From a virus: a DNA stretch of 38,633 nt. The notes below the pieces were generated by a model. It ran no database searches. It was given only the letters and a program-made list of their open reading frames with translations, and had not been told where the DNA came from. The stretch is from the IMG/VR virus record IMGVR_UViG_3300042328_000453, positions 1 through 38,633 of that record; one strand, written 5' to 3'. Position 1 is the stretch's first letter; the number at the start of each line of letters is the position of its first letter. The translations under genes were made by a program, and so were the position numbers. Shown here piece by piece: positions 1 to 36,921 of the stretch.

Positions 1-3000
1 ATCAGGCAACACATATCCTTTCTCACGAACACCTAATATACCCGTAGAACCAATACTCTTCCAATCAAAAGCTGATTTAGATGGTTTAGCTTTAGTTAAA
101 TAATCTTCAGCTAATCGTCCAAAGAATCTGGTAAAGTCTTTTAAAATAGGTACTTGTTCGCCTAAATGTTCAGACATAATTTTAGCGATAGCTTGGAAAT
201 CTCTGGGTGTAACAACCATGTCATAGCTATGTGTCATTTTCTCTACTAAATCCTTAGTGGCAGGATCAAGGAAATATAATTGTTCCATAATCTCATCACC
301 AGGATCTAATCCTTTGTTGAATACATCTTTAACATCTTCTCTAAGTTGTTTAAGCTGCATAGTAGTTTCAGGATCAAACTTTTCATATCTTGCTGCACGA
401 GCTGATATTTCATTTAGTACTTTATCACGATCACTGGCTTTAACGACTAATGTGCCTTCTTGTTTACCCAGTACCTTTGCAAGTTTACCTTCAACATTAA
501 GAATTCCAGTTCTTTCTCCAGCACCATAAAACGTAACCATATTTTGAGCTTTTGCAGCTTTACGTAAATCTTTTTCATTTAAGCCTAATCTTTCATTTAA
601 TACTTTGAAGCGTGGATCATTAAAAGTTGCTGCTGCAATTTCGTCATATAGGCGTCTTTTCTGATTTGTTGGTACAACATTAGATAATGATGCTAATTGT
701 TTATTCTTAGTAGTTAACGCAATAATCTGAGCACCTGATGATGAAGCATCTTGTTCTAAAGCTAAGGCTGTTTTATATTCATCCATAGAACCACCTGCTT
801 TAAGATAATTATCTATCTTAGCAGATTCCATAGCAAATCTAAAAAACTTACCTAACTCTTCACCTTCAATTTGTTGCACCATATCTGACTCTAATATAGC
901 ACGAATATCTCCGGGTTTACCACGTAACATTTTATTACCAATATCTACCATGTCAGGCCAAAGCTTATCAGCAATCTTTTGACGTCCAGTAAATGATAAT
1001 GAATTATATCTACCTTCAAATACATCATTAAGACCTCCCATAAAGGCACCTATCTGATCTCTAAAGTTTCTATATCCATCTTCGCCAAGAACTTTTTCTA
1101 CTTCAGTATTTAAGAAAGGTCTAAATGATTCCCCCGATTGCGGACTAATAAGGCCACGATCATAGATCCTAGCCCGATGATCGACAAAAGCATGATTACT
1201 GAAAGCGTAATCATTACTTCTAAGCCAATCCATAGATTTAAATCGCTCATATGCATCACCACGAGATGAAATATAGTGTTTGTATTCATTCAGATCATTA
1301 TACTTTTTAGCTGCACCTCTGTCATCTTCAAAGTATAATAGCTTTTGTGTAAAGTCATAAAAATCATTATCAATTTTATACTTAGATTTAGATGCCCAAT
1401 TAAGTGCATCTGCCATATTCTTATCAACAAATTCTTCAGGAAAATCTGCAAAACTATGCGTCGATGTAATAGGTATTCTAGTATCTTCTAAACCAAAGAC
1501 ACCATTATCAATAAAATACGTTTTATAACCTTCGCGAAATACTAACTTATTCTTATCCGTTGTTACGCCAACACGTAGGCCGACATCCACCTTTCTTGTG
1601 AGCTGCGAGTATTTTTGTACACGAGGATCTGTTACACGTATATTATATGATAAGGTGTCATAATAGGGGCCAAATAAAGAACCGCTGAGTCTACTCTTCA
1701 TTCTACGTTTTTGTACACCATATGTCTCAACTTCAAAAAAGTTTTTAACATTCTTGGCTTCCAATAACTTCATACCTGTTTCATACCATTTACGCCTGGT
1801 ACCATTCATATTAGATAGGTTGTAAAGATCACGCCCAAGTGCGATAGCAAATTGATCTCTATCAGGCATATCAGCTAATGATAGTCTATGTGCAAATTTA
1901 AGATAGAATTGTTGACGAGCAGATTCTGTCAATCGCTCTGAACCATCAGGCATTCTTTTAATTACCAAGGGAATTTTATAATCAAACGTATTACGTAATT
2001 CTCTTGCTAATTTAGGTGCAACTGTATCTTCCCAATTATTCTTTTCACGAATATTAGAAATGAAATTATCATGCAGGTCTTGTAATTGAGTTGGTCCAAG
2101 TACTGGATCAAGATAATTATCCTGCTTTAATTTCTTTAACACATTAGTGTCACTGCGTATCTGTGTTTCGATAGCATCAGAAACGTTCATTACATCAAAT
2201 TTAATTTGCCCTTGTACTACAGCCTTAAAGTTATTCCACTGTTCTCCGTTATTTCTAAAACGTGTAAACAGTATACGAAGATTATCTACTACAACAGCTC
2301 TTTCATTAGCACCCATTTTCTCACTAAGAGAGTCATTAAATGCCTTAATAAATTCTTTGTCTTTATCCTTTAAGACTTCACTTTGTTCTGTTAATCTTAA
2401 ATTGTTATTGAGTACGGATGGATTAGGTTGATATAATCTTGTATCTTCGTACCTACCTGTAACGGGGTTAAAGACGAGTTGATCCTCCGTTGGAAGATTG
2501 TTAAGCACTCTTGCCTTGGTAGCTTTCTTTGTATGAATAAGTGCGCCTCGATAGTTGGTAAGTGACAACGTACCATCTAACTCTCCTGACTGTAATAAAT
2601 AATAATCTTTAAGTGTTTGTACTAGTTTAGGATCACCTATTAGATCATCTGGTGTCATAATAGGCAATTGCATAGCATCTAGTTTAGCTTTAGCATTTGC
2701 AAATTTCTGTGTATCGTTTGGTAATGTATAAGTAGGATCAGTCATACGTCTTAACTCCTTAATTCCAATAGTGTTACCTTCGGGATTAGTGAATTGATCA
2801 ACAGTAAGTTGTCCTGATTGAAACATATTAACTTTTTTATAATCTCCAAGATGTCTTAATTGCACATCTTGTGATTGACGCTTTAGCCAATCATTGTATG
2901 ATTCTCTAAGTGGCGTGTTACCGTCATAAAAAGCTTTTTGAGCATCAGTTAAATTTTCAATATTTCTACGTCTTACTTGCGCTACACTCTCTAAATCTGC

Positions 3001-3780
3001 TATATCTTTCCATGATTTAAATACAGGGACTGTTGTAGACCTGCAATGCCAATGCGCTGGTGGAAGATGTGTCGTATCGCTTATTGGATATATTTCGCCA
3101 TCTCTATGCGCACATAGCGGAGTTGTTCGTGCGTCAAGGACAGCAACATATTGCCATCCTTGTAACGCTTTTTCATTTGCCTTATAAATAGCATGATCAG
3201 CCTGTGAGGATACGGATGTGATAGCCGTTATTACCAGACCTCTGGACTGCATGCGAGTTATATTATGTACATTTCCTGCACGTACTTGTAGAGCTATTTC
3301 ATCTACGCTTTTTCCGTCAGCTATACCCTTGCGTATAACTGCTTCTAATCTAATTTTTTCATTCTTAGCAATACCTGACCATCCTTGTTCCATTGTACCA
3401 TTTTCGCTTAATGGATTCTTTAAAACAATTTCTTCAGAGATTCTATTCTTAGGTCTTTCGGTACGCCATATCTTACCCATTGCCACTTCTACTTTTTGAT
3501 ATGCAAAAGATAACTGATCAGATACCAATGATGATAAATCTTTTTGAACAGAATTATTAATTGACTTATATGTCGTTCTTAATTCTTTATCAACAGCATC
3601 TTTAAACTTATCAAATCCTTGACCTGACAATTGTGATTCTTTTATTAATTTATCTAGTCTAACAACATGGCCATCTATTACCAAATCGACTTTTCCAGAA
3701 ACTCTTCTTTCATATAGACGGGTCATTGCTGCGCGATCTAGTGTTTTATCGTATATTTGCGTATTACTATTAATGGCCAT
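1..3780 (-). CDS. MuF-type minor head protein fused to a T7-like single-subunit RNA polymerase (partial, runs off window)
   Basis: One ORF of 1260 codons is open to position 1; I checked every in-frame triplet and found no stop. The start follows TAGGAATAACAA, close to the upstream stop. Residues about 60-260 look like a Mu gpF/SPP1 gp7 head-morphogenesis domain, ending in a TTPLCAHRDG segment (C223) and PPAHWHCRSTT (H243, H245, C246). The C-terminal part carries single-subunit RNA polymerase motifs: VDHRARIYDRGLISPQ (D867, R869, R871; T7 DxxGR, here with Ala for Gly), LALEQDASSSGAQ (D1011; T7 D537, motif A) and RKAAKAQNMVTFYG (R1073, K1077, Y1085; T7 R627, K631, Y639 with identical spacing). 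The visible end, GYVLPD, resembles the T7 stretch before motif C, so the motif C HDS should lie beyond the window. Residues 260-800 match nothing I recognise. The position after portal and the MuF domain suggest packaging in the virion. N4 vRNAP is the nearest known logic. Confidence 0.92.
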   Translation of the reverse strand, partial: MAINSNTQIYDKTLDRAAMTRLYERRVSGKVDLVIDGHVVRLDKLIKESQLSGQGFDKFKDAVDKELRTTYKSINNSVQKDLSSLVSDQLSFAYQKVEVAMGKIWRTERPKNRISEEIVLKNPLSENGTMEQGWSGIAKNEKIRLEAVIRKGIADGKSVDEIALQVRAGNVHNITRMQSRGLVITAITSVSSQADHAIYKANEKALQGWQYVAVLDARTTPLCAHRDGEIYPISDTTHLPPAHWHCRSTTVPVFKSWKDIADLESVAQVRRRNIENLTDAQKAFYDGNTPLRESYNDWLKRQSQDVQLRHLGDYKKVNMFQSGQLTVDQFTNPEGNTIGIKELRRMTDPTYTLPNDTQKFANAKAKLDAMQLPIMTPDDLIGDPKLVQTLKDYYLLQSGELDGTLSLTNYRGALIHTKKATKARVLNNLPTEDQLVFNPVTGRYEDTRLYQPNPSVLNNNLRLTEQSEVLKDKDKEFIKAFNDSLSEKMGANERAVVVDNLRILFTRFRNNGEQWNNFKAVVQGQIKFDVMNVSDAIETQIRSDTNVLKKLKQDNYLDPVLGPTQLQDLHDNFISNIREKNNWEDTVAPKLARELRNTFDYKIPLVIKRMPDGSERLTESARQQFYLKFAHRLSLADMPDRDQFAIALGRDLYNLSNMNGTRRKWYETGMKLLEAKNVKNFFEVETYGVQKRRMKSRLSGSLFGPYYDTLSYNIRVTDPRVQKYSQLTRKVDVGLRVGVTTDKNKLVFREGYKTYFIDNGVFGLEDTRIPITSTHSFADFPEEFVDKNMADALNWASKSKYKIDNDFYDFTQKLLYFEDDRGAAKKYNDLNEYKHYISSRGDAYERFKSMDWLRSNDYAFSNHAFVDHRARIYDRGLISPQSGESFRPFLNTEVEKVLGEDGYRNFRDQIGAFMGGLNDVFEGRYNSLSFTGRQKIADKLWPDMVDIGNKMLRGKPGDIRAILESDMVQQIEGEELGKFFRFAMESAKIDNYLKAGGSMDEYKTALALEQDASSSGAQIIALTTKNKQLASLSNVVPTNQKRRLYDEIAAATFNDPRFKVLNERLGLNEKDLRKAAKAQNMVTFYGAGERTGILNVEGKLAKVLGKQEGTLVVKASDRDKVLNEISARAARYEKFDPETTMQLKQLREDVKDVFNKGLDPGDEIMEQLYFLDPATKDLVEKMTHSYDMVVTPRDFQAIAKIMSEHLGEQVPILKDFTRFFGRLAEDYLTKAKPSKSAFDWKSIGSTGILGVREKGYVLPD

Positions 3781-3799: not shown

Positions 3800-4381
3800 T
3801 TATACACCTTTCAATTTTACAGTTCCAAATGTTGGAAGCGGTTTGCCAGCTTTCATGTGCTTTTGCAATGCCTTAGCGTTAGCCATTGCAGGACTTCTTG
3901 CATGGTATAGCTTAGGCGTATTTGTTTTAGGGCCACCAATGATAGCTGAACCTGCGCGAGACGCTAAATAGTTAGCACCACCACCGATAGCTGCACCTAC
4001 AATAGCACCACCAATACCAGCAACAACGGCACCTTTTGTCATCCCCATGCCAGACGCTAATAATAATGGTGTATATGCTTTAGCACCTAAAACAAATGTT
4101 GCAGGATGTGCAACCAGAGCTGCTTTAGTACCAACTGATAATGCGCCATATGTTGCACCCATTGAAGTAGATGCTTGACGTTGTCTTTTTAAAACACGTT
4201 GGCCCTGCGCTTTGTTAGCTGAACCTAATGTTTTGTTAGCGTGGTTCTGTGCAACCATACCAGCCACTAAGGAACCAGGAGCACCAAATAAACCGCCAAT
4301 AGTACCAACAGTTGCGCCACCACGTGCACCTTTGGCATTTTGATTGCCCTTCAAGGCCATACTTCTTTTTACACTTTTCAT
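3800..4381 (-). CDS. Gly/Ala-rich virion protein with long hydrophobic segments
   Basis: 193 aa, starting 2 nt after the portal stop with a GAAGGAATAGTT ribosome binding site. The N-terminus is basic (KSVKR, then LKGNQNAKGARGG). After that come Gly/Ala-rich hydrophobic stretches at about residues 24-45, 75-110 and 112-150, with glycine-zipper patterns such as GIGGAIVGAAIGGG. The C-terminal 40 residues are basic and hydrophilic. I do not recognise a family. It sits between portal and the MuF-polymerase gene, so a head or ejection component that inserts into membrane during DNA entry is a reasonable inference. It could instead be a scaffold-like or head-tail protein. Confidence 0.7.
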   Translation of the reverse strand: MKSVKRSMALKGNQNAKGARGGATVGTIGGLFGAPGSLVAGMVAQNHANKTLGSANKAQGQRVLKRQRQASTSMGATYGALSVGTKAALVAHPATFVLGAKAYTPLLLASGMGMTKGAVVAGIGGAIVGAAIGGGANYLASRAGSAIIGGPKTNTPKLYHARSPAMANAKALQKHMKAGKPLPTFGTVKLKGV

Positions 4382-4383
4382 AA

Positions 4384-5982
4384 CTATTCCTTCGGAGGAG
4401 TCGGTTTAGAGCCTGATGCCATAGCTTCTGTTTGCATCGCATACTGGTCATTATACTTAGTTGCTGCAGGTATAATCTGAGGATCTGCGTTTACTTCTTG
4501 TAATGCAGCTTCATCATCATATTCAGAATCAAGAATATCATTTGCTTTTAGCATCTGCAGCCACACAGTTCTAGGTAATAACCCTGATTGATACCATTGA
4601 GTGACAAGATTCAACCAATCAGCACCTAAGGGCACTGGATCAAAATCTGCGGATAAATTAAACACAATATCACATGAATCAATTTGCAGGCCATATCTCC
4701 AGTTAACCATTAAGCATATTACTTGCTTTAATGTACTAGAGATTTTTGTACTCAACACACTTAATTGTGCCGTCTGAGCAGCATTACGAATTTCTAATGC
4801 AATACCTGATTGTTCATTTTCAGTTGTAAGCATTCTAATGCCAAGTTTAGCCATTTCATCAATAGATGCTTCAATAGCTTTTTGCATATCTTGTAATGCG
4901 TCTGTGGGTGTTTTTAAGACATCTGCTTTATCATCTTGGCGTAATCTTATCCAAGACCCTAATCCAGCGTCTACAATTTCATCAAATTGTTCATCAGGCA
5001 TATCTGACATAATAACAGGTGTATAAGTAGCTGCACCGTATAGTAAATGATTTCGTCTACTAATTTTATTATATAGGCTAATTTCTTTATCTACGATAGG
5101 CATTAATAATGGCATAATAGGTTCTATATTACCATTAACAGGCCATGCAGGAATATGCTTTAGCGGTTCCCCGTTATTAAGTATATTGTCGAATGTTTCT
5201 ATTAACTCGAAATGGCCTGAAGGTAGTAATTGCTGCGCTTTCTCACCAATACCTCCTATTTTAAGAGTTTGATCGCCATTGTCTTTAGTTGTGCCCATGA
5301 ACTTACGAATTTGGTAATTACCTTCTTCGTTTAACTCATGTACCCAGACCGTAGGGACTCTCATAGCATGGAATTCGTTAATAGTATAATCGTCTGAGTA
5401 ACCTTTAACAATTACATATTTTAAAACTGTTTTACCAAATATATCTACAGCTGTTGCCCAATTAACAATTGTTTCGGCTTTTTGCAAAATAGGATATGGT
5501 TTAATCATATCTCTAGTTTCTTTGTCTAAGTTTTCAACATTATTGACAGATGGATAATCTACAAATACCCATGCACGGGATGTATTAATTTCTTCCCACA
5601 ATAATTCATCAAGAAATGCTACTAGTGTAGAGTCATCACGTCCGATATTATTGATAAGCCAATCTTTAGCTTCTTCAGGAACTTCATCCGGTAATGTTAA
5701 TATAGGAGCTTTTCTTAATAAACCCCCAACAAGCATCTTAGCAAATTGTGCAGTAATGCCTGGTAATTCAGCTTCTGACTTATAAAAGTCATATTGAGCT
5801 TGGCTCATTGTTGTAGAGAAGGGTATCAGCAAATTGCTAAATCTAATTAGATCAATATACTGATCCAGCTCTTTTACAGTACGTTCCCCATTGCATACAG
5901 CACGTGCCTTATTCCACGAAGGTTTAAGATACTCATACGCTTGACAAGGATCCGCAACTGTCTTAGTAGGGCCGTATGTCAT
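4384..5982 (-). CDS. Portal protein
   Basis: 532 aa, typical portal length. It forms the dodecameric DNA entry and exit channel at the capsid vertex and docks terminase. The pattern resembles the DUF4055-type portal family: an N-terminal YDFYKSEAELPGI region, a SRAWVFVDYP stretch near residue 140, and a conserved RRNHLLYGAATYTPVI helix near residue 320 followed by an Asp/Glu-rich clip and crown region. The C-terminus is Pro/Lys rich (SKPTPPKE). The gene follows lysozyme and a 66-aa protein and precedes the 193-aa membrane protein and the MuF-polymerase fusion. Portal followed by MuF protein is the classical order in tailed phages. The family assignment rests on pattern and context; no alignment was run. 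Confidence 0.85.
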   Translation of the reverse strand: MTYGPTKTVADPCQAYEYLKPSWNKARAVCNGERTVKELDQYIDLIRFSNLLIPFSTTMSQAQYDFYKSEAELPGITAQFAKMLVGGLLRKAPILTLPDEVPEEAKDWLINNIGRDDSTLVAFLDELLWEEINTSRAWVFVDYPSVNNVENLDKETRDMIKPYPILQKAETIVNWATAVDIFGKTVLKYVIVKGYSDDYTINEFHAMRVPTVWVHELNEEGNYQIRKFMGTTKDNGDQTLKIGGIGEKAQQLLPSGHFELIETFDNILNNGEPLKHIPAWPVNGNIEPIMPLLMPIVDKEISLYNKISRRNHLLYGAATYTPVIMSDMPDEQFDEIVDAGLGSWIRLRQDDKADVLKTPTDALQDMQKAIEASIDEMAKLGIRMLTTENEQSGIALEIRNAAQTAQLSVLSTKISSTLKQVICLMVNWRYGLQIDSCDIVFNLSADFDPVPLGADWLNLVTQWYQSGLLPRTVWLQMLKANDILDSEYDDEAALQEVNADPQIIPAATKYNDQYAMQTEAMASGSKPTPPKE

Positions 5983-17572: not shown

Positions 17573-17593
17573 TTAGGGTTAATTTAACGGGGT
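17573..17593 (-). promoter_or_regulatory. Promoter-like 21-bp element, copy 1 (upstream of TerS)
   Basis: Minus-strand sequence ACCCCGTTAA directly followed by ATTAACCCTAA, identical to three other copies in the window. It lies 90 nt before the TerS start in an intergenic region, in the same direction as the late operon. It contains the near-palindrome GTTAA-A-TTAAC, able to form a 4-bp stem with a 3-nt loop. Perfect conservation in front of separate operons is what promoters of phage single-subunit RNA polymerases look like; the promoter role is inferred. Confidence 0.7.
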
Positions 17594-17728: not shown

Positions 17729-17749
17729 TTAGGGTTAATTTAACGGGGT
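17729..17749 (-). promoter_or_regulatory. Promoter-like 21-bp element, copy 2
   Basis: Second perfect copy, 136 bp further upstream of TerS than copy 1 and 5 nt past the stop of the 67-aa ORF. A 6-bp inverted repeat (TCTATA at 17754-17759, TATAGA at 17766-17771) sits immediately upstream. The 17486-17754 gap holds the two elements and the CCTTTAGG hairpin; I see no gene there. Two promoters in tandem would give the late packaging and structural operon extra transcription. Confidence 0.7.
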
Positions 17750-23206: not shown

Positions 23207-23227
23207 TTAGGGTTAATTTAACGGGGT
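23207..23227 (-). promoter_or_regulatory. Promoter-like 21-bp element, copy 3 (upstream of 204-aa gene)
   Basis: Third perfect copy of the element, 122 nt before the 204-aa gene start. Upstream of it an inverted partner, CCCGTTAA (23253-23260), pairs with TTAACGGG inside the element (23218-23225). The 23086-23206 stretch is the leader of the 204-aa gene, with no further gene. Confidence 0.7.
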
Positions 23228-25186: not shown

Positions 25187-25328
25187 TTTCGATTTCCTTC
25201 TGGATTTTAAATAGATTCTTTAACTGTCTGTTTCTCATCAAAAGCTCTTGCTCTAACAACTGAATAGCATGCTTCTTTTCAATTATTAGAATTTCTACCT
25301 GCCTTTCATAAATGTAAAGTGGCGTCAT
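25158..25328 (-). CDS. 56-aa coiled-coil protein
   Basis: 56 aa, charged and helical (EILIIEKKHAIQLLEQELLM then RNRQLKNLFKIQKEIENENK). It overlaps the end of ligase by 23 nt and the start of the 290-aa gene by 29 nt, and an AGGACGGTATAT ribosome binding site precedes it. It fills what would otherwise be a 120-nt gap. Moderate confidence because of its length. Confidence 0.5.
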   Translation of the reverse strand: MTPLYIYERQVEILIIEKKHAIQLLEQELLMRNRQLKNLFKIQKEIENENKAEQEV

Positions 25329-26676
25329 CATATATACCGTCCTGAATATTCAACAAATGTTCTAGAGTATCTGCTTCATCTTTATCGTAGCGTCTTTCAA
25401 TGAACTTAGGCTCAAATAATGAGTAGTTACCCTTCTCATCGCAAATCACCTCTGAGTATGTTACACCTATAATTGCGTATAACCAGTCTCCACTGTTTTT
25501 ACAAATTTCTGCTGTTAATGCGTCTGTTAAATTACCCACACCAACACTTAAATCGCCATCTTCTGTTACACATAATAATGAGCCAAATGTATATTTATTA
25601 GCACCTGTTCCTGGTATAAATTCAATGACTCTTAACTCACACTCAAACTCTTTCTTAAACTTAACACCACTAGTTGTAGTGCCATCTCTCCATAGCATAT
25701 CTTGTTTCTTAAGCATACTACCTTCTTTACCTTGTCTAACAAGTTCTATGAAATGCGCTTCTGCTTCTTGAAGATTATTTACAATTCGAGTATCAATTAT
25801 TCGAGTCCATTTACATGCAATACCTAGATTAACATCAGATAGATGTAGTAAATCAAAGTGTAAGTTATTTAATCTAGAGTAATAAGGCTCATCATCTGCC
25901 CCGTTAGCAATGCCCGACAACTTTACTCGATCCCAAACCATGAATACAGGTTTTTCTTCTGGCTTAAAGCTGCCGCCTAAATTAACCCTGCGTATAATAC
26001 CATTACTAGTTTTACGTTCCAGAATTTCTCCATTTACTTCTACTAATAATTCACCATGATACTGATATCCATCTTTCATATGAGGACTTAATTCAAATAT
26101 CAAATCATAGTACTCATAGACATTCATTGGCTGGTAATTACGTGATAGCATTGAAATATCACCAGCACTCTTAGTGATGTTTACAAACAAGCCATTAGCC
26201 TTTTCTTGGGAGAATGCAGGAAATGGAAACTTATCCATCTTAACATTCTTAGGAAGGCTAAACCGCATATATTTCTTAATAGGCATGAATTCAGATTGCT
26301 TTGCCTTGTTAATAGATTTAACATCAAAGCCAGCATCTAAACTTTTATTAAGAATTTGACAGAATAAAACTTGAGATTTAGATGTTAGTGTTTGCAAGTG
26401 AGCGTTAATGTTTGCCTTTGCATGATTACCTGTTAACCTTCTCTTAGCTAAGTTATCTAACAAAGTAAATGTAGAATCATTAAACACATCCCGACCATTT
26501 TTGAAAGTCTCTTCTACATTTCTAATACCATACATGATGAATGGGTCATATGCATGCCATATAATATCTTCAAACATCTCATCTTCAAGGCCATATGCTA
26601 ACATTATAATCTTTTCATTTTTAGACGGCTGTTGCGCTATTGCTTGTAATAAATCGTATACGTCATCACTTGTCAT
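25306..26676 (-). CDS. ATP-dependent DNA ligase, T4 gp30 type
   Basis: 456 aa. It seals nicks in lagging-strand and repair DNA using ATP. The organisation is like T4 ligase: about 158 residues of helical N-terminal domain, then motif I at FSQEKANGLF with the adenylated lysine at K159, the same number as in T4. The third motif residue is Asn where KxDG ligases have Asp. Later motifs are visible: YQYHGELLVEV (III), PVFMVWDRV, EGSMLKKQ (IV) and GVKFKKEFECELRV (V). It follows a 21-aa coupled ORF and a terminator. Confidence 0.9.
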   Translation of the reverse strand: MTSDDVYDLLQAIAQQPSKNEKIIMLAYGLEDEMFEDIIWHAYDPFIMYGIRNVEETFKNGRDVFNDSTFTLLDNLAKRRLTGNHAKANINAHLQTLTSKSQVLFCQILNKSLDAGFDVKSINKAKQSEFMPIKKYMRFSLPKNVKMDKFPFPAFSQEKANGLFVNITKSAGDISMLSRNYQPMNVYEYYDLIFELSPHMKDGYQYHGELLVEVNGEILERKTSNGIIRRVNLGGSFKPEEKPVFMVWDRVKLSGIANGADDEPYYSRLNNLHFDLLHLSDVNLGIACKWTRIIDTRIVNNLQEAEAHFIELVRQGKEGSMLKKQDMLWRDGTTTSGVKFKKEFECELRVIEFIPGTGANKYTFGSLLCVTEDGDLSVGVGNLTDALTAEICKNSGDWLYAIIGVTYSEVICDEKGNYSLFEPKFIERRYDKDEADTLEHLLNIQDGIYDDATLHL

Positions 26677-26738
26677 TTCTTAATCCTCAATAAGAGTTTA
26701 ATAATATCCCACGCCAGTTCAGCTAATTGTTTATACAT
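26673..26738 (-). CDS. 21-aa ORF coupled to ligase
   Basis: 21 aa: an amphipathic helix (YKQLAELAWDIIKLLLRI) with basic end KK. A strong GGAG ribosome binding site sits 7 nt upstream of the ATG. Its stop overlaps the ligase ATG (ATGA), so it can serve as a translation-coupling leader, or it may be a small amphipathic peptide with its own role. Confidence 0.5.
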   Translation of the reverse strand: MYKQLAELAWDIIKLLLRIKK

Positions 26739-26752
26739 GATTTTCTCCGATT

Positions 26753-26774
26753 AAAAGGGGAACCGAAGTTCCCC
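26753..26774 (-). terminator. Intrinsic terminator with UUCG tetraloop
   Basis: Minus strand GGGGAAC-TTCG-GTTCCCC followed by TTTT: a perfect 7-bp stem with the very stable cUUCGg loop. It closes the replication unit after the 134-aa gene. The ligase unit then needs read-through or a separate start. Confidence 0.9.
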
Positions 26775-26781
26775 AGTAAGA

Positions 26782-27186
26782 TTATTTTAAATAGTTTCTA
26801 AACATGCCAGCATTGTCAAACACCATAATATATGTTTCAGCTTTTTCATAATACAAGTCAATATATCTATCAAGACCCGGAATATTACTTGTTCGGCCAT
26901 GTGATTTTAGTTCAGGTCTACGGCCTGGATAGGGACTTGTAATTACAACAATACGGCCATCTTTACATCTAAATCTATCTAAATGATCTGCATAATATTC
27001 CCATTTTTGATGTAATATAGCAGCTTGGCGCCCAGTTAAAGGCATATGTCTTTGCAAATCAAATTCTTTTGCAAATTTATTCATATTGTCACAAAGAAAG
27101 AAATCATCACTTCGCGAATTACGATCCCACTTTGTATCTTTAAAAATTTTAGGGTAATCTGTTTGTCTGCTTGGTCCAATTGTCAT
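26782..27186 (-). CDS. Hypothetical protein, 134 aa
   Basis: 134 aa from the ATG inside a slightly longer ORF. Soluble. Motifs: PSRQTDYPKIFKDTKWDRNS, MPLTGRQAAILHQKWEYYAD, SYP-like turns GRRPELKSHGR. Last gene of the replication unit before the terminator. I do not recognise it. Confidence 0.6.
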   Translation of the reverse strand: MTIGPSRQTDYPKIFKDTKWDRNSRSDDFFLCDNMNKFAKEFDLQRHMPLTGRQAAILHQKWEYYADHLDRFRCKDGRIVVITSPYPGRRPELKSHGRTSNIPGLDRYIDLYYEKAETYIMVFDNAGMFRNYLK

Positions 27187-27188
27187 AA

Positions 27189-27380
27189 CTAATTCCACGC
27201 TAAATATTCATTAATACGATAACCAGTAGTTCCCCACTGATATGCTTGAACATACTTATACTTACGATACAACGCCCGTAATTGTTTTCTGCGGTCTCTG
27301 CTATTACCCCTTAGCACAAAATGACTTGGGCTAAGCGTGACAAGCGATACATTCTCCTGCTGCGTTTGATTTGATTCCAT
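27189..27380 (-). CDS. 63-aa basic hypothetical protein
   Basis: 63 aa, starting inside the end of the RNR large subunit at an ATG with AGGACTACTA before it; a much longer in-frame ORF is a shadow of RNR. The body is basic and helical (VLRGNSRDRRKQLRALYRKY, then QAYQWGTTGYRINEY). It may bind nucleic acid or a host protein. Not recognised. Confidence 0.5.
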   Translation of the reverse strand: MESNQTQQENVSLVTLSPSHFVLRGNSRDRRKQLRALYRKYKYVQAYQWGTTGYRINEYLAWN

Positions 27381-29031
27381 TAGTAGTCCTGATATAATAT
27401 AATGACTTAATACCCTCATCCTGAAATGCCATTTGATGAATCTGTGAGATATAGGCTTCACTCTCATCGGCACTAAAGAAAAGGTTAATAGATTGAGCCT
27501 GATCAATATATCTTTGACGAGCAGATGCAAGTCTAATAATTGCTTCAGGTGAAATTTCAAATGCTGTTTTAAACACAGCCTTTTCTTCATCAGTTAGATA
27601 ATCTTCATTCTGAACTGAACCATTATCATCTACGATACGCTTCATTGCAGCTGTTACATCTTCACCGTGAGACTTGATAATCTCTCTAAGCTTAGGTGAA
27701 GATCTAAACATTTTGCCACCAGCGGTGTTTTGTACAAATGCATTCTTGTAGATTGGTTCAATGCCTTGTGACATACCTCCTGCAAATAATGCTGATGATA
27801 AGTTAGGTGCAATAGCTATTAAATGTGTATTGCGCATTCCATGACCGCGACACCATTCGGGTTCGCCCCATTCACGAGCCATCCATCTTGATGCATCTCG
27901 CGCTCTGTCATACAAGTGATGGAACATTGATTGACTGAGATTGTGAGCCTCAAATGAATCAAATGGTAGCATCTTTTCTTGTAAGTAACTGTGGAAACCT
28001 AGCATGCCTAACCCTAATGCTCTAGATTTTTCAGAGAACCTTACAATACGCTCCATACCCTTACGCTTCTTACCAATTTCAATTTGATCTTGGTTAACGC
28101 AATCTAAGAACACTGTAGCAATGAATACAGCATCTGTCTTACTCCAATCATCATAGTATAATGCATTCATAGATGATAATACACATGCAAATGTATATTC
28201 TTCTTCTTTATATTTACCACTGAACAATGCTATTTCAGTACATAAGTTTGAAGCTTTAACTTCTAACCCTTTAGCTGCATACATTGGAGGATTAGCACGA
28301 TTTACTTTATCGATAAAGAAGAAGTAACCTTTACCAAGCAGTCTAAGCTTCATTGCACGCTGGTAACGTCTGATAGCATCTGCATCACCGTTGTTAAGAC
28401 GTTCAATAAACGCATCATTGATAATCCAACCTACATTGGCATCATCAGGATGCTTTGTGATATGTGTCACAAGCTCGTCAAAATCAGCATGGTCAATTTC
28501 TAAGTAACCTGCCCATGCACCACGTCTTTGTGACCCCTGGGAGATGTCTTGTGCTACCTTTACAAAGCCTTTAAATACAGGCAATACACCAGAAGCACTA
28601 CCAGCAACACCACTGATAGCGCTACCTCTAGGACGGATATTTCCAAGGTAATTAGACGTTCCGTAACCTTGTTGACTAAGTACTGCAACTTCTTTTTGTT
28701 TTTCATAAAAGTCATATACTTGATCCTCTATTGAGCCACCTGAACAACTGACAGGGCATCCGAAACCTGTACCCATATTTGCCATCACAGGCGTACTAGG
28801 GATTAACCAACCTTTCCACATGATATCAAAAAACTTCTCTTCCCATGTGACTGGATCAGGTGTATAGGATGCTGCATGTCTAGCTATTCGTGTGTATATT
28901 GATAACAAATCAGGATACTTCTCTGATACGTACTTTTCTTTCAATAATTGCCAACTGTTTGTGATAATCCAAGGTGGTAATCTACCCTCCGCTTGTAATC
29001 GTTTACGTTCTAAACTTAACTCTCTATACAT
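27331..29031 (-). CDS. nrdA: Ribonucleotide reductase class I, large (alpha) subunit
   Basis: 566 aa, from the ATG at the junction with the small subunit (8-nt overlap); the longer upstream start overlaps the small subunit by 100 nt. Reduces ribonucleotides to deoxyribonucleotides with the NrdB radical. The radical active site SNLCTEI has the N-x-C-x-E pattern (C264, E266). Other family segments: GCPVSCSGGSIED with the first redox Cys, FACVLSSMNALYYD with the second, and the C-terminal ECIACHA with a Cys pair for re-reduction. The N-terminal ATP-cone is absent, as in many phage enzymes, so allosteric dATP inhibition is probably lost. Confidence 0.93.
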   Translation of the reverse strand: MYRELSLERKRLQAEGRLPPWIITNSWQLLKEKYVSEKYPDLLSIYTRIARHAASYTPDPVTWEEKFFDIMWKGWLIPSTPVMANMGTGFGCPVSCSGGSIEDQVYDFYEKQKEVAVLSQQGYGTSNYLGNIRPRGSAISGVAGSASGVLPVFKGFVKVAQDISQGSQRRGAWAGYLEIDHADFDELVTHITKHPDDANVGWIINDAFIERLNNGDADAIRRYQRAMKLRLLGKGYFFFIDKVNRANPPMYAAKGLEVKASNLCTEIALFSGKYKEEEYTFACVLSSMNALYYDDWSKTDAVFIATVFLDCVNQDQIEIGKKRKGMERIVRFSEKSRALGLGMLGFHSYLQEKMLPFDSFEAHNLSQSMFHHLYDRARDASRWMAREWGEPEWCRGHGMRNTHLIAIAPNLSSALFAGGMSQGIEPIYKNAFVQNTAGGKMFRSSPKLREIIKSHGEDVTAAMKRIVDDNGSVQNEDYLTDEEKAVFKTAFEISPEAIIRLASARQRYIDQAQSINLFFSADESEAYISQIHQMAFQDEGIKSLYYIRTTNGIKSNAAGECIACHA

Positions 29032-30022
29032 TTTTTGGTGTCCATGTAAATTTAGCTTCTGCCCAATCCCTACGATAATCATTGCCTTGCGCAATGAAAG
29101 TGTCATGTAATGTACTTGATTCAATATCTAAATAAAACCAATCAGCAATCGGATTATATTTAGGTTCAAAGATAGCTGGATAACCTAATCTCTCTAGACA
29201 TATATCTAACCTAGATTGTACAAAGTTTTCAAGCATTAATGCATTAATGCCAGGAATATCTCCTTTATCAAAGATTTTCTTAATGATTTGTTTTTCATGT
29301 TCAAACAAAATCCATGCAGTAATCTCTAGTTCATTAGCAAGTCTTTCATGTGCTAAGTATTCCTCAGCCTCTATTGCTTCATGATATAGAGTGTTAAACA
29401 AATAAGCACCAGCTTGACTATGAATGTTCTCGTCAATAGCGGAGAAATTAATTCCTGCATTAATATTTTGAAATTTATTTTTGCCATTATTATTAAAGTG
29501 CTTTAAGAATGCAAAACTAGAATAAAGAATAGCGCCTTCAATCATGCTAAACACACCTACTGATTTTAACTTATCATAGGTTGTTTCTGATTGTGTAGCT
29601 ACTTTCTCTAACCATTCCATTCTATCTTTAAGAATGGGGTCATCTAAGTATGCTAAATAAAACTCAGGGTTATCTAACCCTAGCAATTCATTAATTTTAT
29701 TATAGAATGGTGCATGAATGTTCAGTTCAAACATTGCAAATACTGAAGCCATTCTTTGAACATCTGGACGTGGAAAATGCTTACATATATAATCACGCCA
29801 GTAGTTATTTCCAACATTAACTTCATAGTGTACAAAAAGCAAAAGAACACTGACAATTCCGTGGTACTCTGCTGCTGTACAATTTGTTCGTAATTCATGG
29901 ATATCTTTCTCCACTTCAATTTCATCTGCTGTCCACAATATGGACGTTTGTTCTTCAGCGAAGTTAATTAACGCTGGATAGTCTGTACCGTAGCATTCTC
30001 TTTCTTCAAGAATTTGTGCCAT
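29024..30022 (-). CDS. nrdB: Ribonucleotide reductase class I, small (beta) subunit
   Basis: 332 aa. Holds the di-iron or dimetal-tyrosyl radical for NrdA. Visible ligand regions: LWTADEIEVEKDIHEL near residues 30-45, FELNIHAPFYNKINELL near 100-115 with the H-x3-Y pair for the radical Tyr, SMIEGAILYSSFAF near 160, and SAIDENIHSQAG near 195-205 (DExxH). The HAPFYNKIN block is typical of aquatic phage NrdB. It starts one base after the primase-helicase stop. Likely complements host reductase during replication. Confidence 0.92.
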   Translation of the reverse strand: MAQILEERECYGTDYPALINFAEEQTSILWTADEIEVEKDIHELRTNCTAAEYHGIVSVLLLFVHYEVNVGNNYWRDYICKHFPRPDVQRMASVFAMFELNIHAPFYNKINELLGLDNPEFYLAYLDDPILKDRMEWLEKVATQSETTYDKLKSVGVFSMIEGAILYSSFAFLKHFNNNGKNKFQNINAGINFSAIDENIHSQAGAYLFNTLYHEAIEAEEYLAHERLANELEITAWILFEHEKQIIKKIFDKGDIPGINALMLENFVQSRLDICLERLGYPAIFEPKYNPIADWFYLDIESSTLHDTFIAQGNDYRRDWAEAKFTWTPKNV

Positions 30023-31639
30023 TTAAATCTCCATAAAATCATCTGGTTGTAATAGTATTGAAGCTGATAACCTACCTGTTGGATAGTCATAATCAACACC
30101 TGGTACGTTTCCTGTTAGACCTGTGAATCTACATTTCAGTACTCTCATCTTAATATGATTTCTTATTCTATCATCATCATGTGACATGTCACGTGCGAAT
30201 GCTATGATATCATTTGAAATTTGTTTAATTGAGCCTGAACCCTTAATATCATCTAAAGATGGTAATTGACCTTCTTCAAATGATGTCTTACCTGTAGGTG
30301 TCTTTCTTAAATGTGATACTAAGCCAATCCATACGGGATATCTTTTACATAATCTAAGTAAATCATTCATAGTTTTATCTATGGCTTCATTACCTGTTAA
30401 TCCATCTACACCTTCTGAAACCAGGATTGTAATGTGATCGATGAATAGATATTTACAGCCTGATAATGCCATATACTCTAGCTTTTCAAACAGAGTTGAA
30501 TCTTCCATAGAACCTTGATGATCTAATACCATAATTCTATCATCACCGAACACTGCTCTAAAGCCTGATTCTAATTCATCCTCTGTTAACTCTCTATATG
30601 AAGGATTGATATTCAACGGAATACCTGAGAGTTTACGTGTAGTCTCAGCAGGTGATTCTTCTAATGATACAATACCTACCATTGCAGGGGTGGTATCTAT
30701 AATATGCCACACAATTTCTCTGAGAATAGTTGACTTACCTGAGCCTGTACCAGAAGTAAATAGTACAATCTCATTTTCACGCATACCTTTAGTCTTAGTA
30801 TTTAATGCATCTAAACACATGGGATATGGTACAGATTCAATATCATTGTAAGCCTTTAAAGCTTCCCATAATTCATCTCTACCTAAGATACCTACAGGCG
30901 TGTATTTAGACGCTTCCCAAATAGCAATTAATAACTGTTGGCCGCCTTTCTCAAGTAACATTTGACTTGGATCTTTAACAGGCAATTTAGCTAATCTTAC
31001 TTTATCAGCACCTATATATTTAATAGCTTCTGCTTTAGCTTTTTCACCAGCCTCATCAGTATCAAGGCATAATACTACTGTGTCAAATGATCTTACCCAA
31101 TCTCTATGCGCTAAGAGTGTCTTAACATTAGATGCTGAGGGGATTGAGACTACAGGATAAATTTTTCCATACTTATCTAATGATGCTTGTGCTACTGCCA
31201 TTGCATCTAATTCACCCTCAGTTACAATCAACCTCTTACCGCCTGTGCCAAACTTATCCATACCGAATAAAGTTGTTGGTTTACCTATACATGAAAACAT
31301 CTTAGGTAATTTTCTAACTTTATAAATACCTTCACCGTAAGGATAATAGTGTGTGTCTATTTCGCCATCTTCATTAAATGCTGATTTAACATCAAAGAAT
31401 TCCGCTACTTCCTTAGATATCTTTCTATCTTTAAAGCCAGCAGTTCTTAGTTTTTCTACGTCTAGTACAAAAGGTTTCTTAGGTTTTTCCACGTGAGTGA
31501 ACTCCTTATTTTTGTTAGCGGGAAACCAAGTTTGACAGCTAAAGCATGTAGCTGTGCCGTTCTCATAGATCTGAAGTGCATCTGAAGAACCGCAATCTGG
31601 ATTTGGACATGGTTGATTGTGAATTACTATTTTACCCAT
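30023..31639 (-). CDS. Primase-helicase, T7 gp4 type
   Basis: 538 aa. Couples primer synthesis with unwinding at the fork. N-terminal zinc ribbon: C11, C16, C33, C36 (CPNPDC, CFSC). TOPRIM primase part: RLIVTEGELDAMAV near 135-150 and VVLCLDTDEAGEKA near 195. C-terminal RecA-like hexameric helicase: Walker A TSGTGSGKST with K302, and KYLFIDHITIL as Walker B. The order zinc, TOPRIM, helicase matches T7 gp4. Starts 8 nt inside the GIY-YIG gene end; precedes RNR. Confidence 0.94.
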   Translation of the reverse strand: MGKIVIHNQPCPNPDCGSSDALQIYENGTATCFSCQTWFPANKNKEFTHVEKPKKPFVLDVEKLRTAGFKDRKISKEVAEFFDVKSAFNEDGEIDTHYYPYGEGIYKVRKLPKMFSCIGKPTTLFGMDKFGTGGKRLIVTEGELDAMAVAQASLDKYGKIYPVVSIPSASNVKTLLAHRDWVRSFDTVVLCLDTDEAGEKAKAEAIKYIGADKVRLAKLPVKDPSQMLLEKGGQQLLIAIWEASKYTPVGILGRDELWEALKAYNDIESVPYPMCLDALNTKTKGMRENEIVLFTSGTGSGKSTILREIVWHIIDTTPAMVGIVSLEESPAETTRKLSGIPLNINPSYRELTEDELESGFRAVFGDDRIMVLDHQGSMEDSTLFEKLEYMALSGCKYLFIDHITILVSEGVDGLTGNEAIDKTMNDLLRLCKRYPVWIGLVSHLRKTPTGKTSFEEGQLPSLDDIKGSGSIKQISNDIIAFARDMSHDDDRIRNHIKMRVLKCRFTGLTGNVPGVDYDYPTGRLSASILLQPDDFMEI

Positions 31640-32147
31640 CTTTTGGCCATTGAATTAAACATTCTGGTGACATTTTAGTAATCATAGTTAATCGTACTCT
31701 GTGATCGTGTGATACATTTTCTTTGACATCCCATGATACTTTCTCGATTTGTTTATTATACCACTTGAGTGTTACTGGGGTCTCAACATGACATAATGAC
31801 CATGTCTCTGCCCAAGCTAAGGAGCCTTTGGTAGTGTATTCATCAAGGACAATAAACTTGAACTCTTTCTTCGGTCTGCTAGCGAAATGAGCCGCCAAAC
31901 TGTTAGAGCTAGATTTATATCTACGCCAATCAGATTCTTGTCCATAAGTAGCTTTACCATATGATCTGTAATTCTTCTTGCCAAGATAGAATCTATCCAA
32001 GACCGTATCATATATAATGTAGATGAATCCCACATATTGTTTATTTCCTACGTTCATCTGTCTATTAAAACACCAGTGTCCATTATCAAATTTACTAATA
32101 TCTGAATTGGACACGGTGTGGTTTATTTTACCTTTAAATTCAGCCAT
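31632..32147 (-). CDS. GIY-YIG-family nuclease
   Basis: 171 aa. YVGFIYIIYDTVLDRFYLGKK matches the GIY-YIG start in a phage form (GFIYII...FYLGKK). Then come WRRYKSSSNSLAAHF and an Ala-x-x-Glu helix (LAWAETWSLCHV), where the catalytic Glu sits in family members. The downstream part (HDHRVRLTMITKMS) is basic. Located where T7-like phages often encode a junction-resolving endonuclease, so it may process branched or concatemeric DNA rather than act as a homing enzyme. Function inferred. Confidence 0.75.
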   Translation of the reverse strand: MAEFKGKINHTVSNSDISKFDNGHWCFNRQMNVGNKQYVGFIYIIYDTVLDRFYLGKKNYRSYGKATYGQESDWRRYKSSSNSLAAHFASRPKKEFKFIVLDEYTTKGSLAWAETWSLCHVETPVTLKWYNKQIEKVSWDVKENVSHDHRVRLTMITKMSPECLIQWPKDG

Positions 32148-32931
32148 CTCTAATTTCCTGTGCTAATGGCCAGTTATCAAAACAGAAATAATCATCATAT
32201 GTATTCTGTATGTTGATGAGCTTTGCATTAGCTAATAAATATTCAGGCCATTCATCACCATTAGCTTTTATATATTGTTCAATTACTGCCTCTTGGAATT
32301 CCTCATCTGTTGTGCAATGTGCTAAAGCTTTTGATGCTTTCACTGGCCCCATTTTCCAAATGCCAGGTATATTATCCGTGGCATCACCTTTTAATACTTG
32401 TTCGTAGAAGTTTCTTTTAGCATCAAGCTCTGAGACTTCTGTAATTGTTTTATGCTTTATATTGTAGTGCTTTCCAGGGATCATTAATAGATCCTTATCT
32501 ATTGAGCATATAACATAATCTATATTATGAGACCTACATTCATTTGCCCATATGCGTAATAAATCATCAGCTTCGCGTCCATCTGCAGCTATAGCAATCT
32601 CGTGCATTACTGCTAGCTTTCTTACAAATGGTACAAAAAGATTAGGTGGACCAGCTGTACGATGCTTCTTATAGTCTACAAATATTTCGTCTCTATAGTT
32701 GCCCTCACCCTTAACAGCCATACAGTAATCACTTGCAAATGTCTCCTCCATAATCACTTCTAACATACTTTCAAAGTTACGCCATATTGCTTTACGATAC
32801 TCTGTATCTTCTTCTTTAGTGAATAGTTGAGGTATTACGTTACCCTCATCATCAAGATATGTGACACCATCAGTACGGTTGTAACAGCAATTGTGTGCAA
32901 GTATATCACCATCAATCAGTGCTATCAGCAT
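32140..32931 (-). CDS. 5'-3' exonuclease, FEN/T7 gp6-like
   Basis: 263 aa. Removes RNA primers and processes 5' ends. Metal-site acids are visible: ALIDGDILAHN with D8 and D10, YRDEIFVDYKKHR near 75-90, GREADDLLRIWA near 120, CSIDKDLLMIPG near 145 and KGDATDNIPGI near 185 with the GxxDN helix-hairpin-helix start. Order and length match T7 gp6-type nucleases. GGAGTTTTAG precedes the ATG; it overlaps MazG by 20 nt. Confidence 0.92.
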   Translation of the reverse strand: MLIALIDGDILAHNCCYNRTDGVTYLDDEGNVIPQLFTKEEDTEYRKAIWRNFESMLEVIMEETFASDYCMAVKGEGNYRDEIFVDYKKHRTAGPPNLFVPFVRKLAVMHEIAIAADGREADDLLRIWANECRSHNIDYVICSIDKDLLMIPGKHYNIKHKTITEVSELDAKRNFYEQVLKGDATDNIPGIWKMGPVKASKALAHCTTDEEFQEAVIEQYIKANGDEWPEYLLANAKLINIQNTYDDYFCFDNWPLAQEIRDG

Positions 32932-33220
32932 CTAAAACTCCCATTTCCTGAGACAATTTCATTCTTAGTAATGTGCGATCAATCTTGTCTCTAATGTCAG
33001 GTACTCTTTCACAATTCAATCGAATATTACATTCTGATGAAAGAAGTATTAAGATAGCTTGTACATCAGAAAGTTCTGATTTTAACTTTTCTTTGTTCGT
33101 CTTTTCATACAGCTCGTATCTATGATCAAGTGTAAACCTTAAACATTTAGATGCTTCTTGTGCAGCTTCTGATAGTTCTTCCATTAAACATACAAGTAAA
33201 TATTGCTCTTTATTCATCAT
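32912..33220 (-). CDS. MazG-like nucleotide pyrophosphohydrolase
   Basis: 102 aa. CLMEELSEAAQEASKCLRF and KLKSELSDVQAILILL give the EExxE ... ExxD metal site of all-alpha NTP pyrophosphohydrolases. It may cleave dNTPs such as dUTP or alter host (p)ppGpp and nucleotide pools. It overlaps both neighbours within the replication block. Length fits single-domain phage MazG. Substrate unknown. Confidence 0.8.
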   Translation of the reverse strand: MMNKEQYLLVCLMEELSEAAQEASKCLRFTLDHRYELYEKTNKEKLKSELSDVQAILILLSSECNIRLNCERVPDIRDKIDRTLLRMKLSQEMGVLDADSTD

Positions 33221-33803
33221 TTTCTCTCATAAATTTAACTATTACAATTCTGCCGTTTCTTTGATTGATGCCTTCAGATAACCATGGTTGCCGCCCGTGA
33301 TATAGCTTTGCATCATAGATCAACAATGTATTTGCCTTTGCGTTAAAGAATTCATCTATTGACCATTGTCCATCATCTTCGTCAAATATATAATGCTCTT
33401 TGGCTTTAGCATAGTTGCCATACACAGGATGACTGAAGAAAGCTGTGCCTGTTATATCACTACTGTCTAAGTAAAAGAGAGCGGCTACAGTTGGTGTTTG
33501 ACCAAATATGTCTTGGTCTGCATGTACTCTAAATTCTGTGTCATGTTTGCTAGTATTCAAACGAACAAATGATATGATATCCTTTAAATTTTTTCCTAGT
33601 GTTTCATTAATAATTTTGTTAATATTATCATTAATATCTCTAGGCATGTCAGCATAATAAATAAATGTGCCATTACCCTTAGGCATTCGTTTATAATTTG
33701 ATGCCCTGCAGTATTGTCTTAATCGCAGAAAATCCTGCATTGATAATACATTATCAATACTAGTGAATCTCGTACCAATCGTTACCGATCTTTCCACTTC
33801 CAT
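33210..33803 (-). CDS. 2-oxoglutarate/Fe(II)-dependent oxygenase-like protein
   Basis: 197 aa from the ATG with GGAG 7 nt upstream. The double-stranded beta-helix signature is visible: EFRVHADQDIFGQ gives H-x-D, TVAALFYLDSS and GTAFFSHPVYG are core strands, then LLIYDAKLYHGRQPW with the second His and GRIVIVKFM with Arg for 2-oxoglutarate. Phage enzymes of this type may hydroxylate bases or proteins, or repair alkylation. It lies between DNA polymerase and MazG, overlapping polymerase by 44 nt. The substrate is not inferable. Confidence 0.75.
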   Translation of the reverse strand: MEVERSVTIGTRFTSIDNVLSMQDFLRLRQYCRASNYKRMPKGNGTFIYYADMPRDINDNINKIINETLGKNLKDIISFVRLNTSKHDTEFRVHADQDIFGQTPTVAALFYLDSSDITGTAFFSHPVYGNYAKAKEHYIFDEDDGQWSIDEFFNAKANTLLIYDAKLYHGRQPWLSEGINQRNGRIVIVKFMRENDE

Positions 33804-35628: not shown

Positions 35629-35643
35629 ATATAATTTCCAAAT

Positions 35644-35672
35644 AAAAGGCACCCCAGTATTAGTGAGGTGCC
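35644..35672 (-). terminator. Intrinsic terminator between DUF3310 gene and polymerase
   Basis: Minus strand GGCACC (35672-35667) pairs with GGTGCC (35653-35648) around a 13-nt loop, followed by TTTTATT. It sits directly upstream of the polymerase ATG, so it may only attenuate transcription into the replication block. Confidence 0.7.
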
Positions 35673-36900: not shown

Positions 36901-36921
36901 TTAGGGTTAATTTAACGGGGT
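36901..36921 (-). promoter_or_regulatory. Promoter-like 21-bp element, copy 4 (upstream of SSB)
   Basis: Fourth perfect copy. It lies only 27 nt before the SSB ATG, so transcription would start close to the ribosome binding site. The first four bases of the element on the minus strand (ACCC) belong to the 3' arm of a 9-bp stem-loop at 36918-36943. Confidence 0.7.

Follow-up and report, generated by a model that had tools for sequence, protein, structure and literature searches.

We found that the virus record IMGVR_UViG_3300042328_000453, whose entire 38,633 bp were analyzed as one stretch (the window), encodes a single protein in which a head-morphogenesis domain of the SPP1 gp7/Mu F type (MuF) is joined to a single-subunit RNA polymerase (RNAP) of the T7 fold. 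The reading frame starts with an ATG at position 3780 of the minus strand and runs through 1260 codons, with no stop down to base 1. Because the window comprises the whole record, the 3′ end of the gene was read from relatives, which give a complete protein of ~1545 amino acids and supply everything beyond the first 1260 codons. The original prediction, made from the sequence of the window, had proposed such an uninterrupted MuF-RNAP frame, and this was borne out by Pfam, NCBIfam, and PHROG profiles, by complete relatives, and by a T7-like fold model. We consider it likely that MuF-RNAP is a packaged and injected virion polymerase that transcribes the early genes, among them that of a second phage RNAP (RNAP2), from a conserved promoter-like element, which we call class 2.

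The MuF part was recognized by PF04233 (E = 7.9e-14; 52.8 bits, cutoff 29.6) and by TIGR01641 phageSPP1_gp7 (56.9 bits, cutoff 39.65), and the head morphogenesis family phrog_241 matched residues 1 to 362 (E = 2e-60). C223, H245, and C246 had been put forward as the key residues of this domain. Both cysteines were invariant in the alignments, but H245 was variable, and the invariant histidine was H243 instead. A predicted model of residues 1 to 600 was usable (pLDDT, the predicted local distance difference test score, 77.9; pTM, the predicted template modeling score, 0.56), and its comparison with the PDB gave no significant fold match. Thus, the assignment to the MuF family rests on sequence profiles.

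In the polymerase part, phrog_414 (RNA polymerase) matched residues 864 to 1092 (E = 1.5e-14). PF00940, with a cutoff of 22 bits, scored 40.3 in the full-length relative L007 (1545 amino acids), 27.1 in phage DSS3_VP1, and 19.8 in the incomplete frame of the window. A direct phmmer search of the frame against the PDB returned nothing meaningful; a profile search reached T7 RNAP (E = 1e-4). The residues predicted for the DxxGR-like motif (D867, R869, and R871), motif A (D1011), and motif B (K1077 and Y1085) were exactly as proposed, and all of them were invariant in 32 of 32 sequences, together with G1086, H1416, H1441, and D1442. Past the window edge, full-length relatives such as L007 show NGNHSND, in the region of T7 H784, and STIHDAFFANAADM, which represents motif C, and their C-terminal end is FYGIG. 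Motif C with its catalytic aspartate had been expected 10 to 90 codons further on; it is present in the relatives as H1441-D1442, at an actual distance of 182 codons from the edge.

The fold was assessed with an AlphaFold2 model of L007 residues 350 to 1545, based on 32 sequences (mean pLDDT 77.9, pTM 0.73). The best structural match of this model was T7 RNAP (Foldseek E = 1.4e-17), and VIA-align superimposed 520 residues at 3.3 Å (Z = 29.7), spanning residues 571 to 1545, with fingers, palm, and thumb. The polymerase palm sought in a fold prediction was recovered. Mitochondrial RNAPs aligned to the model with Z values of at most 27 and the virion RNAP of phage N4 (N4 vRNAP) with a Z of 19.2. 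Profile comparison of the polymerase part gave an E value of 4e-6 for T7 RNAP and of 0.17, over 48 columns in hhalign, for the N4 vRNAP domain. With phrog_2166 at E = 0.03, sequence kinship to N4 vRNAP beyond the common fold was not supported.

The ratio of nonsynonymous to synonymous substitution rates (dN/dS) between the window and its relatives was 0.06 to 0.15, whether the MuF, the middle, or the polymerase part was compared (~0.06 to 0.11 in the polymerase part), with synonymous sites near saturation for the more distant pairs. This strong purifying selection on all parts, the existence of relatives with 60 to 95% identity, and the presence of the gene in three deposited phages indicate that the fusion is neither a product of chance nor an assembly chimera. 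About a hundred IMG/VR contigs and three GenBank phages carry it. One IMG/VR scan yielded 49 relatives, and a profile scan yielded at least 523 confirmed candidate stretches, some share of which possibly holds the MuF part alone. Among 50,697 GenBank phage records, in which DSS3_VP1 is counted under two accessions, the polymerase part was found only in EBPR siphovirus 1 (62% identity in the polymerase region), DSS3_VP1, and DSS3_PM1 (28% each). It is unannotated in all three. Our analysis corrects the database entries of DSS3_VP1, where the gene is labeled "head protein" only, and of EBPR siphovirus 1, where it is split into gp47 and gp49 flanking an HNH gene. In a genome scan, the fusion appeared in only one metagenome-assembled genome, probably as a binned phage contig.

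Motif B is interrupted between V1082 and T1083 (NMV/TFYG) by a group I intron (Rfam RF00028) in two relatives (L024:9224-9459 and L034:2390-2691). At this position, EBPR siphovirus 1 carries an insertion with an HNH gene (JF412302, ~28912-29761), whose likeness to these introns was judged by eye and lies below the Rfam threshold. In addition, in-frame insertions without a Pfam match were found after residue 1107 (~231 amino acids, always 693 nt; L010, L022, and L031) and after residue 993 (101 to 396 amino acids; L027, L031, and L099), and the one of 101 amino acids contains a GHSRGVDRLKYA motif with a SLOG-like appearance on visual inspection. An intein reading of the in-frame inserts was rejected, as they lack intein ends and match no Pfam family; they resemble added domains.

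Features of the window, with positions numbered along its 38,633 bp.
Feature	Positions	Strand	Basis or remark
MuF-single-subunit RNA polymerase fusion gene	1..3780	-	1260 of ~1545 codons; motif C and last ~285 codons off record
MuF/SPP1 gp7-type domain, residues 146-254	3019..3345	-	PF04233, TIGR01641, phrog_241; invariant C223, H243, C246
T7-fold RNA polymerase region, from ~residue 571	1..2070	-	AlphaFold2 model of L007, VIA-align; motif C off record
DxxGR-like motif DHRAR, residues 867-871 (T7 D421-R425)	1168..1182	-	D867, R869, R871 invariant 32/32
Motif A EQDASSSG, catalytic D1011 (T7 D537)	733..756	-	invariant 32/32
Motif B RKAAKAQNMVTFYG, K1077 and Y1085 (T7 K631, Y639)	523..564	-	K1077, Y1085 invariant 32/32; split in some relatives by group I intron carrying an HNH gene
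193-amino acid Gly/Ala-rich protein, hydrophobic in stretches, encoded between portal and MuF-RNAP	3800..4381	-	sequence only; no Pfam/PHROG family
Portal protein	4384..5982	-	phrog_145 E 2.6e-56, DUF4055
Class 1 promoter-like element, second of pair	17573..17592	-	
Class 1 promoter-like element, first of pair	17729..17748	-	
Class 1 promoter-like element	23207..23226	-	
Class 1 promoter-like element CCCCGTTAAATTAACCCTAA (proposed RNAP2 promoter)	36901..36920	-	

As the original prediction had stated, the gene directly follows those of the portal and of a small protein, both of which were found upstream; the latter may possibly be an ejection or membrane protein, judging from its sequence. The fusion gene belongs to the late head cluster, where it lies between the portal and the major capsid protein, whose gene is located downstream in relatives. 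All 13 long relatives examined combine MuF-RNAP with a separate RNAP that matches PF00940 and is typically ~745 amino acids long, interrupted in a few; such an RNAP was found in 0 of 14 control genomes. DSS3_VP1 and DSS3_PM1 carry the same pair of MuF-RNAP and RNAP2. The common gene order is portal, MuF-RNAP, capsid, tape measure, early small genes, RNAP2, DNA polymerase, primase-helicase, and ribonucleotide reductase. The possibility that MuF-RNAP is a recent duplicate of RNAP2 was rejected, as the two showed no significant profile link (E = 0.067). The tape-measure genes of relatives L158 to L174 measure 11 to 13 kb (~3800 to 4350 amino acids), implying very long tails. In the window, positions 25306 to 35652 form a replication module with DNA ligase, the large and small subunits of ribonucleotide reductase, primase-helicase, exonuclease, and DNA polymerase.

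The early region of these phages contains the class 2 element, a conserved 25-bp sequence, GCGGAAAAnnGGTATCTTATATGA, located just ahead of gene starts. The set comprised 78 stretches from IMG/VR with 72 unique sites. The search pattern permitted four lengths; 71 of the 72 sites had the identical 25-bp spacing, and positions that the pattern did not force were conserved too, but the flanks were not. In 58 of 58 cases, the site was on the strand of the RNAP2 gene, 0.7 to 5.2 kb upstream of it, and 80% of the sites, versus 17% of random places, were less than or equal to 80 nt away from a start codon with a Shine-Dalgarno sequence ahead of it. An RNAP gene was present in 45 of 48 other contigs bearing the element, and MuF-RNAP in 16 of the 17 class 2 contigs of at least 50 kb. 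The 17th (G037), which has class 2 and no fusion, ends between the capsid gene and the expected MuF locus. When the class 2 matrix was run over both strands of DSS3_VP1 (75 kb), the top two sites scored 14.4 and 14.1 and the next one 8.3. Both sites belong to a two-copy repeat with which the early region begins, immediately after the tape-measure gene, and which had been detected prior to the construction of the matrix. Early transcription is predicted to start there at 35.8 and 36.3 kb.

At the presumed class 2 start, the surrounding sequence, TATATGAA, resembles the SP6-type TATAGAA. No conserved hairpin was found in the class 2 core, where folding varies between sites, a result that bears on the enzyme only if class 2 is its promoter. 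An N4-type hairpin promoter was considered and rejected, as only one subset (GGTATCTTAT...ATAAGGTACC) shows a strong hairpin, which the other sites and DSS3_VP1 do not have.

Another element, CCCCGTTAAATTAACCC (class 1), is confined to the gene strand, with seven copies in each of three relatives and four in the window. In the near-complete relatives L158 to L174 and in the window, the copies are often paired ~85 to 155 bp apart, and a CCCCCTnnATTAT stretch often comes after the first copy. DSS3_VP1 has an analogue, ATAGGkTrCGTTAAAGArGGGG, in about a dozen copies, with CGTTAAA in common.

A comparison was provided by the Pelagibacter phage Kolga, which encodes a related MuF protein of 633 amino acids, annotated as head morphogenesis only (L273:45152-47053), and a homologue of RNAP2. 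In place of the polymerase, the C terminus of the Kolga protein has a zinc metallopeptidase-like (zincin) domain with HEFAHH, for which the Pfam hits were below the cutoff. No class 2 element stood out in the Kolga genome. This single and distant case fits a MuF cargo slot and ties class 2 to the fusion.

How MuF-RNAP would act can be outlined from these observations. By analogy with SPP1 gp7 and Mu F, the MuF part would anchor the protein to the portal, within the capsid, while the head is being assembled, and upon infection MuF-RNAP would exit with the DNA. Its T7-fold polymerase would then recognize class 2 where the early region begins and transcribe the small early genes and the RNAP2 gene, after which RNAP2 would transcribe the replication and late genes, probably from class 1. 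The DNA of DSS3_VP1 carries deoxyuridine (dU) in place of deoxythymidine (PMC12697855), and we speculate that in this phage a packaged polymerase may also solve the recognition of the dU template. For the window family, dU-DNA was considered and rejected, as a homologue of the DSS3_VP1 deoxycytidine deaminase was not found in the window or in four long relatives.

Because the gene lies among the late head genes, an early role is possible only if the particle brings the polymerase. The order from packaging and injection through class 2 and RNAP2 to class 1 is favored because of this late-cluster position, the proposed delivery of fused effectors by MuF proteins (PMC5512222), and the precedent of phage P23-45 (PMC10770324). 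The original prediction had likewise assigned the protein a packaged, injected, and early-transcribing role. The genomes support this role through the late head cluster gene, the constant presence of RNAP2, and the co-occurring early element; packaging, injection, enzymatic activity, and the pairing of each polymerase with its element are what we infer from them.

Several points weigh against this scheme. The glycine of DxxGR is replaced by alanine in 27 of 32 members, and the polymerase would have to pass through a long narrow tail. Class 2 ends in TATGAT or TATGAA (TATAAT in DSS3_VP1), which resembles the −10 box of sigma-70 promoters. Moreover, the assignment of class 2 to MuF-RNAP, and not to RNAP2 or the host enzyme, draws on position and on co-occurrence in related phages of shared ancestry. 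It is conceivable, if unlikely, that the fusion is packaged and injected but that class 2 sites function as early promoters for host sigma-70 or as promoters for RNAP2, with the virion polymerase using other, unrecognized sites or mainly helping to pull the DNA in. This would agree with the −10-like spacing of the terminal hexamers from TTGCGG and with RNAP2, which is likewise conserved in all members. However, unlike in sigma-70 promoters, ~20 bases of class 2, including the would-be spacer, are fixed within the family, and class 2 can still be recognized in a phage with just 30% identity in the fusion protein. Sigma-70-like sites were not enriched in the early region (20 versus 16.5 ± 4.5), and Kolga has RNAP2 but not the class 2 element.

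We regard as improbable a second alternative, in which MuF-RNAP is made late and acts late in the same cell, its task being the transcription of late genes, the priming of replication, or packaging, while MuF only localizes it to the portal and RNAP2 is expressed from host promoters. The location of its gene in the structural cluster and of RNAP2 in the early region would suit such a role. Yet no late role with a need for a head domain is obvious, MuF cargo is generally considered to be delivered (PMC5512222), and elements of the early region accompany the fusion and are missing in its unfused relative Kolga. Last, it is very improbable that the polymerase part is degenerate cargo with a structural role only, as the low similarity to characterized RNAPs, the glycine-to-alanine change in DxxGR, and the large insertions in some members might suggest, given that the catalytic D, K, Y, H, and D are invariant in all 32 sequences, that dN/dS in the polymerase is low, and that a group I intron in motif B occupies a typical intron site, a conserved active site.

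On balance, it seems to us reasonably probable that MuF-RNAP represents a previously undescribed class of virion RNAP, that is, a T7-type enzyme carried by MuF at the portal, with its own 25-bp promoter and a two-polymerase cascade, in a long-tailed phage group of wide distribution that includes dU-DNA roseophages, whose uracil-containing DNA may also require a packaged polymerase for its transcription. If so, the small set of virion RNAPs known so far would gain another architecture, and the cargo slot of MuF, in which toxin-like and modifying enzymes are known, could also hold the phage's own transcription machinery. It would offer a possible explanation for the onset of transcription in a dU-DNA phage, and a new T7-type enzyme and promoter pair could serve as an orthogonal transcription tool. 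A concrete candidate promoter sequence and two isolated phages, DSS3_VP1 and DSS3_PM1 (fusion proteins QGH74596/QGH74736), are available.

The original prediction had regarded the fusion as undescribed. This holds for the literature found, in which no MuF-T7-type RNAP fusion appeared, a remark in a 2021 roseophage paper not being excluded; comparable systems, however, do exist. In the available part of a survey of polyvalent proteins (Iyer et al. 2017, PMC5512222), MuF head domains with enzymatic C-terminal cargo (RelA/SpoT, PBECR, and 2H, among others) are proposed to be injected, N4-like virion RNAP modules are confined to N4-like phages, and no T7-type RNAP on MuF is described. T7 RNA polymerase (Autographiviridae) shares with MuF-RNAP the fold, motifs A, B, and C, the R627-K631-Y639 spacing, and the specificity-hairpin region, but it is a free early protein that is not fused to a head protein and not present in virions. 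N4 vRNAP (gp50, Schitoviridae) is, as in our model of MuF-RNAP, a packaged single-subunit RNAP with a T7-like core, which transcribes early genes first, a second phage RNAP arising from them. In contrast, it is carried by its own long domains at the N and C termini, which are unrelated to MuF, it uses hairpin promoters, and it belongs to a podovirus, and the fold of MuF-RNAP is nearer to that of T7 RNAP. In the siphovirus P23-45, a two-barrel RNAP (gp96) is fused to the tape-measure protein, and a nonvirion RNAP (gp64) is also encoded; the fused enzyme was experimentally shown to transcribe pre-early genes, including the gene of the second RNAP, and the AT-rich pre-early promoter motif is lost in relatives without the fusion (PMC10770324). 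Like the MuF-RNAP phages, P23-45 thus combines a siphovirus particle, a fusion of a structural protein with an RNAP, and a second RNAP; it differs in its cellular-type two-barrel enzyme and tape-measure carrier, as compared to the T7-type enzyme and MuF carrier found here. Together, the combination of carrier and enzyme appears to be new, and the strategy is known from N4 and P23-45.

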